Assembly: GCA_020721045.1 (NCBI GenBank)
Contig: DYNN01000001.1
Coordinates: forward strand, 1 to 64,000
From: Thiomargarita sp.
Lineage (GTDB): Bacteria > Pseudomonadota > Gammaproteobacteria > Beggiatoales > Beggiatoaceae
Direction: 5' to 3'
Length of the DNA: 64,000 nucleotides
Position 1 is the first letter of the stretch. Every line of letters begins with the position of its first letter. The notes below the pieces were generated by a model. The model was not told the origin of the DNA and ran no database searches. It saw only the letters and a program-made list of their open reading frames with translations. Both the position numbers and the translations under genes were made by a program. Shown piece after piece: positions 9,640-41,113 of this stretch.

Positions 9640-10335
9640 ATGGGACGTCGCATTGCCGTCGTTGAAGATGAACCTGCTATTCGCGAAAATTACGCAGCTG
9701 TATTACGCAGACAGGGCTATGAAGTCAGCACATACCCCAATCGCTTGGATGCCATGCAAGCGTTTCATACCCGTTTGCCTGAATTAGTCTTACTAGACAT
9801 TGGGTTAGAAGAGGAAGTAGAAGGTGGATTTGATTTATGTCGTGAATTGCGCGCCTTATCACAATATTTACCCATTATCTTTCTAACCGCCCGTGATAGC
9901 GAGTTTGATATGGTATCTGGATTACGTTTAGGTGCTGATGATTACTTAACTAAAGACATCAGTATGCCTCACTTATTAGCGCGGATTGCCGCATTATTCC
10001 GTCGTGTCGACGCATTGCGCACCCCGCCTTCAGAAGAAAATGTCATTGAACGCGGTTCACTACTTATTGATAGTAATCGTCTCACTGTTACTTGGCGAAA
10101 AATACTCATTGATTTAACTTTGACTGAATTTTGGATTATTTATGCATTAGCGCGCCACCCTGGGCATGTCAAACACCGTGAACAATTGATGCATGAAGCC
10201 AATGTTTTCGTAGATGACAGCACAATTACATCTCATATTAAACGTATTCGGAAAAAATTTTCCAGTGTCGATGTTCGATTTGCAGCGATAGAAACTGTCT
10301 ACGGTATGGGCTATCGTTGGAACGTTGATAAATAA
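9640..10335 (+). CDS. OmpR-family response regulator (resembles the dedicated-sortase-system regulator)
   Basis: This 231-residue protein has a receiver domain (residues ~4-120, VVEDE acidic pocket, phosphoacceptor in LVLLDIG, conserved Lys in YLTKD) and a winged-helix DNA-binding domain (about 130-230). The extended text GLEEEVEGGFDLCREL is what I associate with the regulator of the proteobacterial dedicated sortase system (PdsR). That subfamily call is from memory and moderate. No sortase, sortase substrate or partner kinase is present nearby. A Shine-Dalgarno (GAAGGAAA) precedes the ATG. Confidence 0.8.
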   Translation: MGRRIAVVEDEPAIRENYAAVLRRQGYEVSTYPNRLDAMQAFHTRLPELVLLDIGLEEEVEGGFDLCRELRALSQYLPIIFLTARDSEFDMVSGLRLGADDYLTKDISMPHLLARIAALFRRVDALRTPPSEENVIERGSLLIDSNRLTVTWRKILIDLTLTEFWIIYALARHPGHVKHREQLMHEANVFVDDSTITSHIKRIRKKFSSVDVRFAAIETVYGMGYRWNVDK

Positions 10336-10361
10336 TTTCTCATTTAACTCTTTCTATTCTC

Positions 10362-11501
10362 ATGCAAATTCTCGCTGACGAAAATATCCCTTATGTGCGT
10401 GAACTTTTTTCTACATTAGGGGAAATCCGTACAATTGCTGGACGTAGCTTACAACAAACTGATTTAACAAACATTGATGTGCTACTTGTGCGTTCAGTGA
10501 CACCCGTTAATGCAAATTTACTTAAAAATACACAGATAAAATTCGTGGGTACTGCGACTATTGGATATGATCATATCGATTTGAATTTTTTAGAAAAACA
10601 TCGTATTGGCTTTAGTTATGCCCCGGGGTGTAACGCAACCGCTGCCGCTGAATATGTGATTAGTAGTTTGATAATTATGTCAGAAAGGCAAGGATTTGAT
10701 TTAACGAATAAAACTGTCGGTATCATTGGTTGTGGCAATGTGGGCTCACGTGTTTGGCAAAAATTACAAGCTTTGGGTGTCACTTGTTTGCGTCATGATC
10801 CACCATTGCAAGAAAAACTTGGAAATCAAGACTTTGTTGATTTAAATAGGGTATTAACCGCCGATATTATCACTTTACATGTGCCTTTAGAAAAAGCAGG
10901 ACCTTATCCAACTTATTTGATGGTAAATCAAGCATTTCTAGCGAAATTACATCCAGAAACTCTTTTCATTAATACCTCGCGGGGTGCTATCGTCGATGAA
11001 GTGGCTTTGCTGCATAAATTGACTCAATGTCCAAAAATGACTGCAATTTTAGATGTTTGGGCGAATGAACCAACGATTAATCAAATTTTATTGCAGCGCA
11101 GCAACTTGGGAACACCGCACATTGCAGGTTATAGTTTTGATGGTAAAATCACTGGTACTACCATGTTATATCAAGCAATTTGTCGTCATTTTGCCTGTAT
11201 TCCGACAGCGCGCATTCCTTTGCCACCCGCACCGCTGACCGGCTTAAGTTTTTCTCAAACTGTTGATGATAAAACAGCTATTCAAACTGCGGTATTAGCG
11301 GCTTATGACGTAAGACGAGATGATGCCGCACTCCGTTTAAGCGCACAAACTGCTAATCCTGCTAATGCTTTTGATTTATTGAGAAAAAATTATCCTATTC
11401 GCCGCGAATTTCATAATATCACTATTTCATTACCAAAAGAAAAGCTATTGCTAGCTAACAAAATGCAACAATTAGGTTTTAACATTTCATTTTCCGCTTA
11501 A
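10362..11501 (+). CDS. pdxB: 4-phosphoerythronate dehydrogenase PdxB
   Basis: PdxB oxidises 4-phospho-D-erythronate in the DXP-dependent vitamin B6 pathway. The 379-residue product starts MQILADENIPY, the usual family start. It shows the D-2-hydroxyacid dehydrogenase NAD-binding loop (GIIGCGNVGS, about residue 120), the catalytic Arg in NTSRGAIVDE and a His in TPHIAGYSFDGK, with the C-terminal PdxB-specific dimerisation domain from about residue 285. It lies 26 bases after the response regulator and 9 bases before mnmE. pdxH for the last step of the pathway lies at 27.8 kb in the same window. Confidence 0.93.
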   Translation: MQILADENIPYVRELFSTLGEIRTIAGRSLQQTDLTNIDVLLVRSVTPVNANLLKNTQIKFVGTATIGYDHIDLNFLEKHRIGFSYAPGCNATAAAEYVISSLIIMSERQGFDLTNKTVGIIGCGNVGSRVWQKLQALGVTCLRHDPPLQEKLGNQDFVDLNRVLTADIITLHVPLEKAGPYPTYLMVNQAFLAKLHPETLFINTSRGAIVDEVALLHKLTQCPKMTAILDVWANEPTINQILLQRSNLGTPHIAGYSFDGKITGTTMLYQAICRHFACIPTARIPLPPAPLTGLSFSQTVDDKTAIQTAVLAAYDVRRDDAALRLSAQTANPANAFDLLRKNYPIRREFHNITISLPKEKLLLANKMQQLGFNISFSA

Positions 11502-11510
11502 TAATCAATT

Positions 11511-12848
11511 ATGAACCTACAATTTCAAGAAACAATTGCTGCATTAGCAACGCCGGTGGGTCGCGGTGGTATTGGCGTTATTCGCGTTTCAGGTGAATTA
11601 GTACCTACTGTTGCAACGGCTTTACTGGGTCAATTACCACAACCACGTTATGCTACATTTAGTCAATTTACTGATTCTAAAGGACAATTGATAGATCAGG
11701 GTATTGCACTCTATTTTCCTGCGCCACACTCATTTACGGGCGAAAATATTTTGGAATTACAAGGGCATGGCGGTATTATTGTCATGGATACCTTGTTAAA
11801 AGCGATATTAGCATTGGGTGTTCGATTAGCGCGCCCGGGGGAATTTTCTGAACGCGCATTTTTAAACGGTAAAATTGATTTAGCACAAGCAGAGGCAATC
11901 GCTGATTTAATTGATAGCAGTTCGGTACATGCCGCACGGTGTGCATTACGTTCTTTACAAGGCGAATTTTCTAATCATATTAACCAGTTAGTTGAAGAAT
12001 TAACCCAATTACGCACTTATATTGAAGCGGGCATTGATTTTGTCGATGAAGAAATTGATCTATTGGCAGATGGTCAAGTTAATAACAAAATAAACTTATT
12101 AATCAAACAATTAGAATCTATTTTACAAAAAGCACAACAAGGTTATTTGTTGAAAGAAGGAATGCGTATTGTGTTAGTAGGCGAACCTAATGTAGGAAAA
12201 TCCAGTTTATTAAATGAGTTAGCGGGGCGTGATACGGCTATTGTTGCTGCCATACCCGGGACAACACGTGATATAGTGCGCGATCAGATTTTGTTAGATG
12301 GAATGCCACTACATATTACTGATACAGCGGGTTTACGTCAAACCGATGATCCTGTTGAGCAAGAAGGAATTCGTCGTACTAAACAAGCGCTTCAAGATGC
12401 CGATATCGTTATTTTGCTATTGGATGATCGACATGTAAATGATGATCCGCACGCTCAATTATTAGCTGAATTACCTATGAAGCCTTTGATTATCCGAAAT
12501 AAAATTGATTTAACTGGTCATTCAGCGGGTATAAGCGATAACATGATCTGTTATTTGTCAGCTAAAACCGGTGCTGGAATTGATGCTTTAAAACAGCAGT
12601 TGAAGAATATGATGGGATTACAAGCCAATACTGAGGGTAATTTTATGGCACGCCGTCGACATTTAGAAGCGTTAAAACAAGCACAGTCAGCGTTATTGAC
12701 CAGTATGAATTATGCGCAACAACAGCAAAGTGAATTGTTAGCAGAAGAATTACGTTTGGCACAACAAGCGTTGGGCGAAATTACTGGGCAAGTCACTGCT
12801 GATGATTTACTTGGGCGTATCTTTTCTACGTTTTGTGTTGGAAAATGA
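11511..12848 (+). CDS. mnmE: tRNA uridine-5-carboxymethylaminomethyl(34) synthesis GTPase MnmE
   Basis: MnmE acts with MnmG to modify the wobble uridine of certain tRNAs. The 445-residue protein has the N-terminal folate-binding domain (TPVGRGGIGVIRVSG), a helical domain interrupted by a G domain (P-loop GEPNVGKSS near residue 223, DTAG, NKID), and the terminal Cys motif FCVGK ending the protein. It is intact and of normal length. mnmG is not in the window. Confidence 0.95.
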   Translation: MNLQFQETIAALATPVGRGGIGVIRVSGELVPTVATALLGQLPQPRYATFSQFTDSKGQLIDQGIALYFPAPHSFTGENILELQGHGGIIVMDTLLKAILALGVRLARPGEFSERAFLNGKIDLAQAEAIADLIDSSSVHAARCALRSLQGEFSNHINQLVEELTQLRTYIEAGIDFVDEEIDLLADGQVNNKINLLIKQLESILQKAQQGYLLKEGMRIVLVGEPNVGKSSLLNELAGRDTAIVAAIPGTTRDIVRDQILLDGMPLHITDTAGLRQTDDPVEQEGIRRTKQALQDADIVILLLDDRHVNDDPHAQLLAELPMKPLIIRNKIDLTGHSAGISDNMICYLSAKTGAGIDALKQQLKNMMGLQANTEGNFMARRRHLEALKQAQSALLTSMNYAQQQQSELLAEELRLAQQALGEITGQVTADDLLGRIFSTFCVGK

Positions 12849-33143: not shown

Positions 33144-35345
33144 ATGTATTTCACCAAAATTACCAGCATCTTACTTATTTCACTGATTTTTATTGAAATA
33201 ACGCACGCCTCATCTCCAGACCAGCCAGAATCTATTGATACTTTAATCCAATTAGCCCAAACCCATCAACAACTTGGATATTATCAACAAGCTTATACCG
33301 AACTGACTGATGCGTTGACTTACGCACAATATCAAGATGACACATTACATCAAGCACTTATTTTAAGTTATTTCAGTGAATTACATCGTATTCAAGGTGA
33401 ACAAATTATTGCGCGCAATCAAATAACCCAAGCACTAGAATTAGCTAATACTCTTAAAAAACAACCATCTATCTTATTAGCACAATTATTTAATCAGCAA
33501 GGCAATATTTTGATGGTAGACAAAAATTACCCAAAAGCAGAAAAAAGTTATGCGACTGCGTTAAATTTTGCTAAACAAGCGAAAGATACATTATTCATCA
33601 CGAAAATTTTGATTAATCAAGCACAAATATTTTTAGAAACCCAACAATCACTCGAAACAATTCAAACCACTTTACAACTTGCTAGCCAAACTATTAAATC
33701 ATTCACAACAAATGATGAAAAAATAAGATTATTATTGCATATTACGGAATTACAACAAAAATTAATTCCAAAATTACCCCAACTACTTGATAATACTTAC
33801 CAACGACTACAAGAAATTATCAAAATAGCGTCAAATTCACCGCGTTTTTACAGCAAAGCAAACGCACAACTGGCACAATTATATCAACAGCAACAACAAT
33901 ATAGTGAAGCAACGCAATTAATTAGACGCGCTATTTTTGCTGCACAACAAATACAAGCCATTGATTTATTATATCATTATCAAAAACAACTCGGACAATT
34001 ATGGTTATTACAAGGCGAGAAAATCTCAGCGATTGCCGCATACCAACAAGCGGTAACTTATTTAGATTCAATACGTAATCAAATTATGAGAATACATCGT
34101 TATGGCGAACCTACACACTTTCGAGAGACAGAAGCGGGACAAATTTATTTTGAATTAATTGACTTATTATTGCAACAAGCGACTGATAATACAACAGAAC
34201 AACAGATTTATTTAGAACGAGCAAGACAAACAATTGAATTATTTAGACAAGCAGAATTAGAAAATTATTTCCAAGATGACTGTGCACAAAAACGATATAT
34301 TATCGATACTTCAACACAATTAGCCAACGTAGCCGTTTTATATCCAATTATATTTTATAATCGATTGACTTTACTAGTTTATTTTCCAAAAAAATCTACT
34401 TTATTTCAAGCAAATATTCCGGTTACGGATTTAGAAAGTAAAATTGGTGAGTTTTTGAGCGAATTGACAGTGAAACAACCAAACACCATAGATGATATAC
34501 TGCCTTCAGCTCAAGCACTTTACCAGCTATTAATTCAGCCCATTAGTCAACAAATTGCACAAACACAGTTACTCGTTATTATACCCGATGAACGACTGCG
34601 AACTATTCCTTTTGCGGCTTTACACGATGGTCGCCAGTTTTTGATTGAAAAATATGCACTGGCAACAACACCGAGTTTGAATTTAACTAATTTAAGTCAA
34701 CGACAATGGGATAATATTCATATTTTTGCCAGCGGATTATCTAAAAGTGTACAAGGATTTCAATCACTTCCATATACTGAAATTGAATTAAAATCAATTA
34801 AAGCTGAATATCAGACAGATGAGCTAATAAATGAGCATTTTACCAAACAAGCATTTGGCGAAAAATTAATGCAGACACCTTATACTATAGTACATATCGC
34901 CTCCCATGGGAATTTTTCTAATAATTACAAAGAAAGCTTTTTATTAACTTATGATAATCGTATCTATCTAAACGAATTGAAGAAATTGATACATTTTAAT
35001 CAATTTAGAGACAATTCAATTGAATTATTGACATTAAGTGCATGTGAGAGTGCCCAAGGTAACGATAAAGCAGCACTAGGATTAGCAGGCGTTGCAATTA
35101 AAGCGGGTACTAAAAGTGCCATCGCGAGTTTATGGCAGGTCAATGATCAAGCAACTTGTCAATTAATGACGACTTTTTATCATTTTTTACAAAATAAGCA
35201 CTTTTCTAAAGCAAAAGCATTACAACAAGCGCAAATTCAGTTACTTAAAAAACAATCTTTTCAAAATTGTGATGCCAGTGAGACAGCAGATTATCGGCAT
35301 CCAGCTTATTGGGCAGCTTTTTTATTGATTGGAAATTGGTTGTAA
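33144..35345 (+). CDS. exported TPR-CHAT protein (caspase-like peptidase)
   Basis: This 733-residue protein has a signal peptide (ending around ITHASS, residue ~23), an array of TPR helices (about 30-330) and a C-terminal CHAT domain (about 440-733). The catalytic pair is intact: His588 in VHIASHGNF and Cys634 in LTLSACESAQG. CHAT domains are C-terminal caspase-family peptidases; some are effectors in bacterial defence, but most signal-peptide-bearing TPR-CHAT proteins have no known role. It sits alone between ftsH and ettA. Protease activity is inferred from the conserved dyad. Confidence 0.85.
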   Translation: MYFTKITSILLISLIFIEITHASSPDQPESIDTLIQLAQTHQQLGYYQQAYTELTDALTYAQYQDDTLHQALILSYFSELHRIQGEQIIARNQITQALELANTLKKQPSILLAQLFNQQGNILMVDKNYPKAEKSYATALNFAKQAKDTLFITKILINQAQIFLETQQSLETIQTTLQLASQTIKSFTTNDEKIRLLLHITELQQKLIPKLPQLLDNTYQRLQEIIKIASNSPRFYSKANAQLAQLYQQQQQYSEATQLIRRAIFAAQQIQAIDLLYHYQKQLGQLWLLQGEKISAIAAYQQAVTYLDSIRNQIMRIHRYGEPTHFRETEAGQIYFELIDLLLQQATDNTTEQQIYLERARQTIELFRQAELENYFQDDCAQKRYIIDTSTQLANVAVLYPIIFYNRLTLLVYFPKKSTLFQANIPVTDLESKIGEFLSELTVKQPNTIDDILPSAQALYQLLIQPISQQIAQTQLLVIIPDERLRTIPFAALHDGRQFLIEKYALATTPSLNLTNLSQRQWDNIHIFASGLSKSVQGFQSLPYTEIELKSIKAEYQTDELINEHFTKQAFGEKLMQTPYTIVHIASHGNFSNNYKESFLLTYDNRIYLNELKKLIHFNQFRDNSIELLTLSACESAQGNDKAALGLAGVAIKAGTKSAIASLWQVNDQATCQLMTTFYHFLQNKHFSKAKALQQAQIQLLKKQSFQNCDASETADYRHPAYWAAFLLIGNWL

Positions 35346-37760: not shown

Positions 37761-37785
37761 TCACTGAAGTTGTGCATAACGCTTT

Positions 37786-37815
37786 CATGTCCACAATAAG
37801 TTGAGAGTCAATCAG
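37786..37815 (+). repeat. left copy of 30-bp direct repeat flanking the accessory cassette
   Basis: A 30-base sequence starting CATGTCCACAATAAG and ending GTCAATCAG, 26 bases after the gacA-like stop. It matches 28 of 30 bases with 41084-41113 in the same orientation. The pair brackets the whole 3.3-kb insert, consistent with an insertion boundary or recombination site. Confidence 0.65.
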
Positions 37816-37820
37816 TGCTA

Positions 37821-37979
37821 TAGGGCGTAATAGCGTATTGCGCCGTATGTTTACCACACGATGTTACCCGATCTATAGAATAAACGCCCTATTCAACCTA
37901 GCGATGATAGTTTGTCATGATGAATTCTTAGGTAAATGTCGATATTTTCATGCGGCGCAATACGCTGATGCCATTGCGC
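37821..37979 (+). mobile_element. MITE-like element, family A, copy 1 (right end joined to transposase remnant)
   Basis: A 159-base element starting TAGGGCGTAATAGCG and ending in the inverted counterpart GATGCCATTGCGC. The core TATAGAATAAACGCCCTAT starts at 37874. It shares its core and ends with copies at 40819-41042 and 50863-51036, all in the same orientation. The last bases of the right repeat are missing where the IS4-type transposase remnant begins. Confidence 0.7.
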
Positions 37980-38348
37980 TTTACGGACAAAACTGTCGAA
38001 TCGGTATTGCAAGATATCTATTCAACCTTATACTTAACTAATATAGAATCAATGCTGATAGCAGAAACGACAGTTAATCTTAAAGATAAAACCACGAACA
38101 AGCATCAACAGAAAGTTAATCACAGCGTTTCATTTCGTGCTATCAAAACTAAGGCATTGAATTTATTATTTAGCAAGCTTCCAATTAGTAAAGTTTTAAA
38201 TAAGTTAAGAAAGTTATTTGTCACTAATCCAACTTTGGATAAAAAAAGCCGACAACTCCAAGAAAGACTAAAACTGCTCGTCACTTGTTGCATTACCATC
38301 AAACTCAACGTAAACATGTATTCTAAAACCTTAACTCAATGGCATTGA
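37980..38348 (+). pseudogene. C-terminal fragment of an IS4-type DDE transposase
   Basis: The frame from FTDKTVESVLQDIYSTLYLTN to VNHSVSFRAIKTKALNLL and the basic tail (residues up to the TGA at 38348) matches the C-terminal end of IS4-family transposases, where ENFxGKTVESVLQDFYA and VNxxxSFxxxK are conserved. The N-terminal catalytic part is missing; the frame instead starts directly at the right end of the MITE-like element. It is a decayed remnant, no longer a functional transposase. Confidence 0.65.
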
Positions 38349-38365
38349 GCCTACGAACTGATTGG

Positions 38366-39211
38366 TTATTTCATAAATTCTTTTTTCTTATCTTCAGGCA
38401 ATCCGCTAAATTCAGTTGGTTCATATACTTTATTTTCAATACATTTCTGAATTTCAAGTAGTGCGCCTTTTACTTCGGCATTAAATGCGCCAAGAACACT
38501 TTTTCCCTCAGTATTAACCAAGATAATCAAGAATTTTTGTCCTAAACGTTCTGATTGATAAGGACAAATCTTTATTATGCCTTTGCTAAATATTAATGTA
38601 GCTTCTTCTGCAATACCACGATTAAAATTTGCTTGAGCATCTTTTATGAAGAGCTGAAAGTGTTTGACTGCTATAGAATATCTATCTAAATTAAGGGTAT
38701 CTGTATTTCCACCCAGTACCTTTCCCGCAGCCACATTACTACTTGCATAGGGATCTCCATCTTCACCTAACACAATCGCACCATCAATCCCATTAGGTTG
38801 ATCAGTTAAGTAGTTTAAGTAACCATTTAGAATCATATGTATCTCCTTTTTTACAATATTGAAGCTTTCAACGAGAGTCATTTCTTCGTGTACAATATAG
38901 TGAGAATCGTTTGGATCAAAATGTAAGTCTAAATTCTCTTTTAACCAATTAGACTCTTCTTTTTGTGTTTTAACCCCTAGTGTTTTTAGAACATTTAAAA
39001 CATGATCTTTGAGTGCCATATTTACTAGAATTCCCCCTCCTGTATCAACTAACTTATCGTTTTTCATTAAGTTTTTTAAGAGAGTTTCTATAGTACGAAT
39101 TGTTGCAGCAGGTGGAAAAAAATAATCTGCTCTTCCCTGAATTTTGGCTGGGACATTACCGAAAGCTTTCTCTGCTAGATGCTTTGGAACAGTATAAAAG
39201 TAAATTTTCAC
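38366..39211 (-). CDS. Roadblock/LC7-like domain protein of the ATPase cassette
   Basis: This 281-residue soluble protein has an unrecognised N-terminal region (residues 1-125). Its C-terminal region (about 127-265) has the Roadblock/LC7 pattern: a first helix, GIDGAIVLGEDGDPYASSN, a long helix, a strand IIKICPYQ, a hydrophobic strand FLIILVNTEGKSVLGAFN and a last helix. Roadblock proteins regulate small GTPases in bacteria such as the MglA/MglB and conservon systems. Here the partner encoded upstream is a ParA/MinD-type ATPase instead, and the two genes overlap by ATGA (39208-39211). Function is unknown; a regulatory role is inference. Confidence 0.55.
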   Translation of the reverse strand: MKIYFYTVPKHLAEKAFGNVPAKIQGRADYFFPPAATIRTIETLLKNLMKNDKLVDTGGGILVNMALKDHVLNVLKTLGVKTQKEESNWLKENLDLHFDPNDSHYIVHEEMTLVESFNIVKKEIHMILNGYLNYLTDQPNGIDGAIVLGEDGDPYASSNVAAGKVLGGNTDTLNLDRYSIAVKHFQLFIKDAQANFNRGIAEEATLIFSKGIIKICPYQSERLGQKFLIILVNTEGKSVLGAFNAEVKGALLEIQKCIENKVYEPTEFSGLPEDKKKEFMK

Positions 39212-40380
39212 AAAAACTCTCCACTTTTATCCAACATTGTGACAAATTCTCCATATATATCACGTCCTTTCAAATCTTGTAAATATGTTGCACAAGTAAA
39301 TCCTTCGTTACTCTTATCTGTATACGCATACAAAACAGGATCATAAGTTGCGAAAGGGTAAATATTCTTACTTCTTTGTCCGTTTGGAAAAGAACCCGCA
39401 ATCATCGTAGCTAATTTAAGGTGCGTATCGTTCCCACAAATAGTGGTGCCTTCCCTTTCTGCATTTTGTATCAAATCATACTGTGCTTTGAGTGTTTCAA
39501 TCCAATTATCAAATGACATATCAAAGGAAGGAATTGCATTGATGACATTCGTAATTTTATCAATTCGTTCTCTTCCATTTTCTTCTTGAAGAATTTGAGG
39601 AGAAAGTATTTTTTGTACTTTAACTAAAGCATTTTTGAAGGATATAAGTAAATTTTTTCTTTTTTCCGTATCAGTTTCTAGTGGAAGCATTGCAATAGTG
39701 CTAATGACATGTCTAAATGGAGTATCATTTGGAAATTTAGGATTAGAAAATGCACATTCCACAGCTTGACTAACATCCAATACAACACTGGATTCATTAG
39801 TTTGCTCTACATTTGTCGAGGAAGGAAGTAATGCCTCTACTTGCGCGTATACCCATAAAAACCAAATTTTTATATTAATTTCTTTAAATTTTTTTGTAAT
39901 TTCAGTTTCTACCATAGGAAACAAAGTAGCAAAATGATAGTTGGTGTCAATAATGACTCTTGATATTTTTCCTTCATCAACATTGTACTTACCAAATAAA
40001 TTTTTTACCCAGTTCTTTTCATTACTCTTTTTTACTATGTCTAGTATTAATTCTTGAAATTGAGAGTAATTGTGAGTTTCAAATGGATTTCTTGGTTGAG
40101 CGACAATAAATTTTTTGCTATTTAATCCCTCGACTAAGTAAAAACCGAAACATTTTTCGCCTAATACAATATTAACACCACTTCCACGGTGATCATGAGG
40201 AAGCCCATTTCCTGTTTTCAACAATAAGCGAGAAAAATCTACATTCATATTATTTAAATCAATAATTAATGTGTGATCTTTACTACTTTTTTGCCTTTCC
40301 AAACAACGAATTAACATCATTAATGATAGAAGTGTTTTTCCAGAACCACCTTTACTACCTGTAACCAGATGAAATTCCAT
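39208..40380 (-). CDS. ParA/MinD-like P-loop ATPase of the accessory cassette
   Basis: This 390-residue protein starts with the deviant Walker A GSKGGSGKT (signature Lys in KGG, residues 8-16). A Walker A'-like segment LIIDLNNMNVDFS and a later VIIDTNYHF (Walker B region) follow. This is the SIMIBI class shared by ParA, MinD and related ATPases. There is no DNA-binding domain and no obvious membrane-targeting helix at the C-terminus. It is the central gene of a three-gene operon: 28 bases after the small membrane protein, and coupled to the Roadblock-like gene. Partitioning, localisation or defence are all possible. Confidence 0.7.
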   Translation of the reverse strand: MEFHLVTGSKGGSGKTLLSLMMLIRCLERQKSSKDHTLIIDLNNMNVDFSRLLLKTGNGLPHDHRGSGVNIVLGEKCFGFYLVEGLNSKKFIVAQPRNPFETHNYSQFQELILDIVKKSNEKNWVKNLFGKYNVDEGKISRVIIDTNYHFATLFPMVETEITKKFKEINIKIWFLWVYAQVEALLPSSTNVEQTNESSVVLDVSQAVECAFSNPKFPNDTPFRHVISTIAMLPLETDTEKRKNLLISFKNALVKVQKILSPQILQEENGRERIDKITNVINAIPSFDMSFDNWIETLKAQYDLIQNAEREGTTICGNDTHLKLATMIAGSFPNGQRSKNIYPFATYDPVLYAYTDKSNEGFTCATYLQDLKGRDIYGEFVTMLDKSGEFL

Positions 40381-40408
40381 TTTATGTATTTCTCTTTATA
40401 AAAATAAT

Positions 40409-40747
40409 TTACTTTAATTTAGCACAACAAATATTTGGATTACTACAACAAAATGTATCATAGATTTGAAACCAAATAAAGAGTGAAATCATTGTGCCAA
40501 TGATTGCCCAAAAAAACCTCTTGGAATAATAGTTTGTTCTCCTATCCTGATCCAAACTTTTAAAAATAATACTAAAGAATAAGAGTACTACAAAAAATAG
40601 TACGGCGCTTGCTAATACGCCCCCCCCTATTTCTATTAACATCCCTTTATCTGCTATCCAGTTATGATATGTACAACCCCATTTCATTATGCCAACTGGA
40701 ATAGTCAATACCTCAATGAGAATAGTCAAAAAGCCTTTATTTTTCAT
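40409..40747 (-). CDS. small membrane protein of the accessory cassette
   Basis: The 112-residue product starts at ATG 40747 (MKNKGFLT), which has GGAG 7 bases upstream; an in-frame GTG at 40759 is an alternative. Hydrophobic segments lie at about residues 7-22, 38-62 and 79-97, with a basic loop (KSLDQDRRTNYYSKR) between the last two. The C-terminal tail holds five Cys in a row of CCSNPNICC type. Function is unknown. As first gene of the operon it could anchor the ATPase and the Roadblock protein at the membrane. Confidence 0.55.
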   Translation of the reverse strand: MKNKGFLTILIEVLTIPVGIMKWGCTYHNWIADKGMLIEIGGGVLASAVLFFVVLLFFSIIFKSLDQDRRTNYYSKRFFWAIIGTMISLFIWFQIYDTFCCSNPNICCAKLK

Positions 40748-40818
40748 GATAAACTCCACTTATGTTGAAAATGATGTTTAAAACTAATCTTCTATCTCAG
40801 GGCATCAGGGCAAACGCG

Positions 40819-41042
40819 TAGGGCGTAATAGCGTCAGCGTATTGCGCCGCATATGTTTACTACTACGAAAACTCTTTTGATATTATGTCGTTTACCAGCA
40901 AAAAAATCAATGGTTAAGGATGTTGTCCTGTCTATAGAATAAACGCCCTATTCAACCTAGCGATGATAGTTTGGCATGATGAATTCTTAGGTAAATGTCA
41001 GTATTTTCATGCGGCGTAATACGCTGATGCCATTGCGCCCTA
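40819..41042 (+). mobile_element. MITE-like element, family A, copy 2
   Basis: A 224-base copy with intact ~34-bp terminal inverted repeats (left TAGGGCGTAATAGCGTCAGC..., right arm ending CATTGCGCCCTA). Compared with copy 1, about 65 extra bases lie between the left arm and the shared core that starts at 40933. It has the same orientation as copy 1 and marks the right side of the accessory cassette. Confidence 0.7.
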
Positions 41043-41083
41043 GTGCGCTAGGTTTCCTTTCGTTAACTCAGCCTACGTGCTAA

Positions 41084-41113
41084 CATGTCCACAATAAGCT
41101 GAAAGTCAATCAG
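41084..41113 (+). repeat. right copy of 30-bp direct repeat flanking the accessory cassette
   Basis: Starts CATGTCCACAATAAG and ends GTCAATCAG; 28 of 30 bases match 37786-37815. It lies between the second family A element and the nap-like operon. The 403 bases from 40760 to 41162 hold only this repeat, the family A element and the reductase leader with its AGGAG ribosome-binding site. Confidence 0.65.

Follow-up and report, generated by a model that had tools for sequence, protein, structure and literature searches.

Roadblock proteins of bacteria are known to act together with Ras-like GTPases, and ATPases of the MinD/ParA type to work as positioning or partition motors. What, then, is encoded by a locus that combines a MinD/ParA-like ATPase, a protein with a Roadblock-like half and a small membrane protein? 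Such a cassette lies on the minus strand of the window, by which we mean the whole 64,000-nucleotide stretch that was analysed. The three open reading frames listed in an earlier note on this DNA, for a 112-aa membrane protein, a 390-aa ATPase with the motif GSKGGSGKT and a 281-aa protein, are all present, and comprise the following features:

40409..40747, minus strand: small membrane protein, type 'a', 112 aa from ATG (open reading frame)
39208..40380, minus strand: MinD/ParA-like SIMIBI ATPase, 390 aa (open reading frame; MEFHLVTGSKGGSGKT)
38366..39211, minus strand: adaptor (partner), 281 aa, GTG start (open reading frame and alignments with relatives)
38885..39211, minus strand: N-terminal domain of the adaptor, ~105–110 aa, MKIYFY..., predicted ATPase-docking domain
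38400..38875, minus strand: C-terminal Roadblock/LC7-type domain of the adaptor, residues ~113–265 (profile-profile comparison)
39208..39211, minus strand: GTGA start/stop overlap of 4 nt between ATPase and adaptor (sequence)

An alternative GTG start at 40759 would extend the membrane protein to 116 aa. The 4-nt overlap between the last two genes had been read as ATGA; the sequence is GTGA, composed of the GTG start (39211–39209) and the TGA stop (39210–39208), and we propose that it may couple translation of the adaptor to that of the ATPase. The G+C content of the coding part is 32–34%, versus 37–41% in the adjoining genes. An open reading frame at 37950–38348 was discarded as a gene because it overlaps a flanking repeat and has no family match. 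A 733-aa TPR protein is encoded 3 kb from the cassette, at 33144–35345, and its C-terminus looks CHAT-like by eye only.

Direct repeats flank the cassette at 37781–37980 and 40919–41113 (93% over 120 nt), and the earlier note accordingly described a repeat-bounded insert. The repeats exist, but they are ordinary dispersed repeats, matched at no fewer than 29 places in the same genome, so that the flanking copies are not specific cassette boundaries and the insert idea is not supported. The dispersed repeat is ~130 nt long, contains internal inverted repeats (GGCGTAATACGCT.../AGCGTATTGCGCC) and is possibly MITE-like.

A pattern scan of ~85,000 species genomes revealed one close relative, a Thiomargarita metagenome-assembled genome (MAG) with the three genes in the same order and identities of ~60–61% for the ATPase, 36–39% for the adaptor and 38% for the membrane protein; this relative assigns the window to the Beggiatoaceae. 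With the ATPase as query, 17 of 58 related genomes yielded relatives, and a profile of 18 relatives matched 21 of 43 Beggiatoaceae genomes, a patchy spread within the family. Among 398 genomes drawn from the phylum this profile matched only the window's own genome and none outside the Beggiatoaceae, and among 369 drawn from the class only the own genome and one further member of the family; the two draws may partly overlap, and the restriction to Beggiatoaceae holds within the phylum, which is the range of this sensitive survey. Collections of plasmids, phages and viral contigs contained no relatives of the ATPase or the adaptor.

Besides the window, ~30 further loci were inspected. A partner gene with a similar N-terminus (MKI..Y..) lies downstream of the ATPase in 25 of 26 assessable loci, the exception being L094, which has no recognisable adaptor. 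The two genes are at most 25 nt apart in 21 of 24 measured loci, nine of which show an overlap of exactly 4 nt. Where the upstream gene is readable, its product has predicted transmembrane (TM) helices in 22 of 26 loci; an upstream membrane gene is absent from three loci (L024, L030 and L092). Since L094 lacks the adaptor and these three lack the membrane gene, no part is absolutely obligatory. Frameshifted or truncated cassettes (L032:6068–7312, L033:6798–8035 and L099) indicate that the system is also lost through decay. The cassette is real and conserved, and the joint recurrence of its genes exceeds chance: whether homologues are ever found together, the test proposed in the earlier note, is answered by the ATPase and partner of these 25 loci and by the complete set of three in the Thiomargarita MAG.

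The window ATPase carries a Walker A motif GSKGGSGKT (residues 8–16), a Walker A' region DLNNMNVD (41–48), a Walker B motif VIIDTN (142–147) and a family motif WFLWV (173–177). Across an alignment of 18 ATPases, GxKGGxGKT, IIDTN and WFxWV are kept; within Walker A, G11, G12, G14, K15 and T16 are invariant and K10 occurs in at least 90%. Pfam CbiA matches all 18 family members (best 4.8e-7), the window protein itself at 0.0047, below the gathering score, and the NCBIfam families BcsQ, ParA and MinD match weakly. The deviant Walker A and the CbiA matches support the SIMIBI class that had been assigned by reading the sequence. The cassette ATPase shares with MinD, ParA, FlhG and BcsQ the deviant Walker A KGGxGKT, the Walker B motif and, by profile, a CbiA-type fold. 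It differs from them in having DLNxMNxD in place of DxD and a long C-terminal extension with WFxWV, and in its adaptor partner and membrane module, which are not known from those systems.

MinD and Soj require the second aspartate of DxD for hydrolysis. This residue is Asn in the cassette family: N43 is invariant in all 18 proteins, as is an Asp at position 48, so that ATP hydrolysis is not assured. Nucleotide binding appears likely from the conserved motifs, and a slow or differently triggered ATPase switch is possible. As judged from motifs and profiles, the MinD/ParA-like SIMIBI fold class stands despite the DLN sequence; canonical hydrolysis does not follow from it. The structure model of the ATPase, with a pLDDT of 37, is of too low a quality to be interpreted.

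Assigning the 281-aa protein required the comparison of profiles. Pfam, NCBIfam, PHROGs and PADLOC returned nothing specific for the three window proteins, and Pfam gave no match for the 281-aa protein or any of 13–15 members of its family. A search of the family's genomes with Robl_LC7 (PF03259) matched other proteins and no cassette adaptor, and searching the PDB sequences yielded chance matches only, whether the query was a single protein or a profile. A profile of the adaptor C-half was compared with those of canonical Roadblock proteins that other Beggiatoaceae loci encode. For the GTPase-linked type, HHalign measured a score of 53.8 (E 1.9e-8, 121 columns), whereas 100 column shuffles reached at most 15.8, the reversed profile 10.2 and unrelated decoy families at most 20.3. 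Removing the divergent L015 left a score of 50.1 (E 6e-8), with the whole domain aligned over 119–121 columns in these comparisons, and the window C-half scores 37.6 bits against a profile built without both the window and L015. The Roadblock/LC7 half that the single-sequence searches missed, and that the earlier note had recognised, is therefore found by profile comparison.

Modelling the adaptor with AlphaFold2 from an alignment of two sequences gave a weak result (pLDDT 43). The C-half of this model has the predicted order alpha-beta-(beta)-alpha-beta-beta-beta-alpha, which fits that of Roadblock domains. When this weak model was compared with 350,542 PDB chains using Foldseek, the best four matches were LAMTOR/Ragulator Roadblock proteins (E 0.025–0.095), and the top 20 include MglB and a Streptomyces Roadblock domain. 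Structure prediction, which had been suggested as a check, thus agrees in element order and in the identity of the top matches, but at a pLDDT of 43 and E values no better than 0.025. From the profile comparisons, the identification of the C-half as a Roadblock domain is well supported; the fold search supports it more weakly. Canonical Roadblock proteins of the Beggiatoaceae probably share the fold of the adaptor C-half and are homologous to it in profile-profile comparison. Unlike the cassette adaptors, they are stand-alone proteins of ~120 aa that Pfam Robl_LC7 recognises, and where they adjoin an NTPase gene (their neighbours are CZB-type or Ras-like GTPase genes), it encodes a GTPase, not a MinD-like ATPase.

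Comparing the adaptors of different loci reveals that the Roadblock half is exchangeable. Among 25 adaptors, the C-half is Roadblock-like in 17, a TM segment with LysM or a similar unit in four, a Ser/Thr kinase with a TM segment in three and another TM type in one. Pfam Pkinase matches two of the kinase outputs (4e-31 and 1.6e-14), the third (L030) falling below the cut-off, and Pfam LysM matches at 3.9e-6. The N-domains of these classes are homologous: HHalign matches that of the Roadblock type to that of the LysM type with a probability of 98% (E 4e-14), and to that of the kinase type with 93% (E 4e-7). As judged by these alignments, the N-terminal ~110 aa is the constant element of the adaptor, common to the output classes, and the partner type changes at least four times on the ATPase tree. 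In L030 (6155–8197), an ATPase with an N-terminal caspase-like region is followed by the kinase-like adaptor; the motifs YVGHG and DACYSG of that region were recognised by eye, and Pfam Peptidase_C13 matches at 0.003, below the cut-off.

Which half follows the ATPase can be read from their divergence. At Roadblock-type loci, N-domain identity correlates with ATPase identity at r=0.97, and at 0.91 for pairs below 60% identity; the corresponding values for the Roadblock half are 0.82 and 0.41. The difference between the two correlations exceeds zero in 99.5% of bootstrap replicates, and it persists when the window is left out; co-divergence also arises from shared ancestry, for which comparing two halves of one protein controls in part. 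Between the window and the Thiomargarita MAG, identity is 61% for the ATPase, 47% for the N-domain and 23% for the Roadblock half. The co-divergence of the N-domain, together with the replacement of the Roadblock half, points to the N-domain as the ATPase-docking part. The earlier note had paired the Roadblock domain itself with the ATPase, a view that is not supported, since in relatives a kinase or TM-LysM unit takes its place and it is the N-domain that tracks the ATPase. For the same reason we consider it very unlikely that the Roadblock domain acts directly on the ATPase, as an activator or exchange factor, in the way that MglB acts on MglA. Roadblock proteins regulate NTPases, according to Koonin and Aravind (2000) as cited in PMC4316618, and the domain is the most frequent output (17 of 25 adaptors), but it has been replaced in eight loci with the ATPase retained, and for distant pairs it co-diverges with the ATPase at 0.41 against 0.91 for the N-domain.

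The input side is exchanged as well. Hydropathy predicts two clear and one marginal TM helices in the window's 112-aa protein, which carries the conserved type 'a' motifs WGCxYHN and YDTFCCxNP and has an orthologue of 38% identity at the same position in the Thiomargarita MAG. The protein thus belongs to the cassette, as had been suggested, and we propose it as a putative membrane input or anchor. In an all-against-all comparison, the upstream proteins fall into mutually unrelated types:

type 'a': window and Thiomargarita
type 'b': TM helix, ~150-aa loop, TM helix; in L033 it also forms the C-terminal part of a STAND-TPR protein
type 'c': six TM helices
type 'd': unrelated to the other types by all-against-all comparison
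nSTAND1 with TM: L026 (2.7e-87)
STAND-TPR: L094, L096 and L099

The upstream type changes at least eight times on the ATPase tree. In L093 (6836–9598), a large STAND-TPR protein and an ATPase relative form a single fusion protein, whose gene adjoins an intact cassette; the Walker A motif of the fusion is degraded (SSQNATGKT versus SKGGVGKT).

These input modules bear on a reading in which the ATPase would form a gradient on the membrane or nucleoid, as ParA- and MinD-type motors do, with the adaptor as an activator that links it to cargo; the Roadblock, kinase or LysM ends would then each suit a different cargo in cells that are very large or filamentous. Such positioning would suit the deviant Walker A, the MinD/ParA-type family matches and an operon in which the partner has a conserved N-terminus. 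The A' motif, however, lacks the second Asp that MinD and Soj use for hydrolysis, a ParB-like protein was not found in the cassette, and Pfam reported no ParB-like domain among the partner proteins scanned. Although the hosts are indeed large, filamentous sulfur bacteria (PMC8612568), the upstream membrane proteins and STAND modules fit sensing better, and we regard positioning as unlikely. Some part in spatial organisation, as the earlier note had suggested, is nevertheless possible.

We favour instead a modular, membrane-linked ATP switch of the Beggiatoaceae, to which we assign a probability of roughly one half. From the arrangement, exchange and co-divergence of the modules, we infer that the upstream membrane module would sense a condition or anchor the complex, a role that elsewhere may fall to a protein of the TM-loop-TM or six-TM kind, or to a STAND NTPase that carries TM helices. 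The MinD/ParA-like ATPase would change state with ATP, probably via a nucleotide-sandwich dimer, and the adaptor N-domain would dock on one of its states and so control the exchangeable C-terminal output. In the window, a dimer of the Roadblock domain would act as a platform, plausibly for a Ras-like GTPase of the kind that Beggiatoaceae genomes encode beside canonical Roadblock proteins. The outputs of relatives would be either Ser/Thr kinases or peptidoglycan-binding LysM units with a TM segment.

Several of these modules are also familiar from conflict systems. In anti-phage defence or regulated cell death, the membrane or STAND protein would detect invasion, the ATPase would set a threshold and the adaptor C-terminus would act as effector or adaptor. 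In line with this reading, relatives carry nSTAND1 (2.7e-87), STAND-TPR proteins, kinases and, in L030, an ATPase with the caspase-like region at its N-terminus; a membrane protein can serve as a pore-forming effector, and the cassette is patchily spread (21 of 43 genomes). Moreover, the published VMAP conflict systems of multicellular bacteria combine MinD/ParA-like domains with Ser/Thr kinase coupling and have Beggiatoa among their hosts (Kaur et al. 2020, PMC7159879). Like the cassette, these VMAP/STAND systems shuffle STAND, caspase-like, kinase and MinD/ParA-like domains around a core, and occur in multicellular or aggregating bacteria. Whereas the VMAP ternary system has a MoxR and vWA core, neither was found among the cassette proteins or the partners scanned. 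The published MinD/ParA domains are predicted to be inactive; here, Walker A is intact, the constant part is a MinD/ParA-like ATPase with its Walker residues, and most outputs are Roadblock domains.

The genomic setting gives little sign of the defence or mobile island that the earlier note had considered. Most neighbouring genes have housekeeping functions (nuo, symporter, glucokinase, infB/ubiD), no relatives occur on the plasmids, phages or viral contigs searched, and a scan of 115 flanking proteins revealed no consistent defence context. One relative, the cassette of L092, adjoins a Septu-like pair: PtuA/PtuB-like genes lie directly downstream of it (10074–12337). Most members also lack a catalytic effector, and none of the three window proteins matched a PADLOC model, even with E values of up to 1 allowed. 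A defence role is possible; as an account of the cassette as a whole, we consider a conflict system rather improbable. LysM-type cassettes of different genera (L019, L033 and probably L025 and L096) adjoin a sodium:solute symporter-like gene, and L021 and L031 both adjoin two glucokinase genes. These shared neighbours suggest that the loci are old and vertically kept.

As a membrane-linked switch, the cassette is most readily compared with the actinobacterial conservons (cvnA-D) and MglA/MglB. All encode a membrane or sensor protein, an NTPase and a Roadblock protein together, in multiple copies with different outputs. However, the NTPase of the cassette is a MinD/ParA-like SIMIBI protein (CbiA/MinD type) and not a Ras-like GTPase, there is no histidine kinase or DUF742 protein, and the Roadblock domain shares its chain with a predicted docking domain and can be exchanged. 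Among the open papers searched, we found none that joins Roadblock proteins and ParA, MinD or SIMIBI ATPases into one system. Both the Roadblock and the ATPase family are present at type IV pilus loci of archaea, but separately (PMC4858521). The combination of Roadblock, SIMIBI ATPase and membrane anchor, flagged beforehand as unfamiliar, thus matches no published architecture that we found. As far as tested, the cassette family of giant sulfur bacteria is previously undescribed: its parts are of known kinds, and their arrangement is new. More tentatively, the cassettes may represent a new class of transmembrane signalling system, with a MinD/ParA-type ATPase as the central switch and one docking domain. 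Into this switch, sensor loops or STAND NTPases would plug as inputs, and Roadblock, Ser/Thr kinase or LysM units as outputs.

If this is true, ParA-type ATPases can be general signalling switches, joined to a Roadblock domain, a kinase or a cell-wall-binding unit via a common docking domain. The Beggiatoaceae include the largest known bacteria as well as filamentous ones, and how their cells are organised at the scale of the whole cell is an open problem. It is in this family, where cell-scale organisation matters as a question, that the cassette is concentrated.
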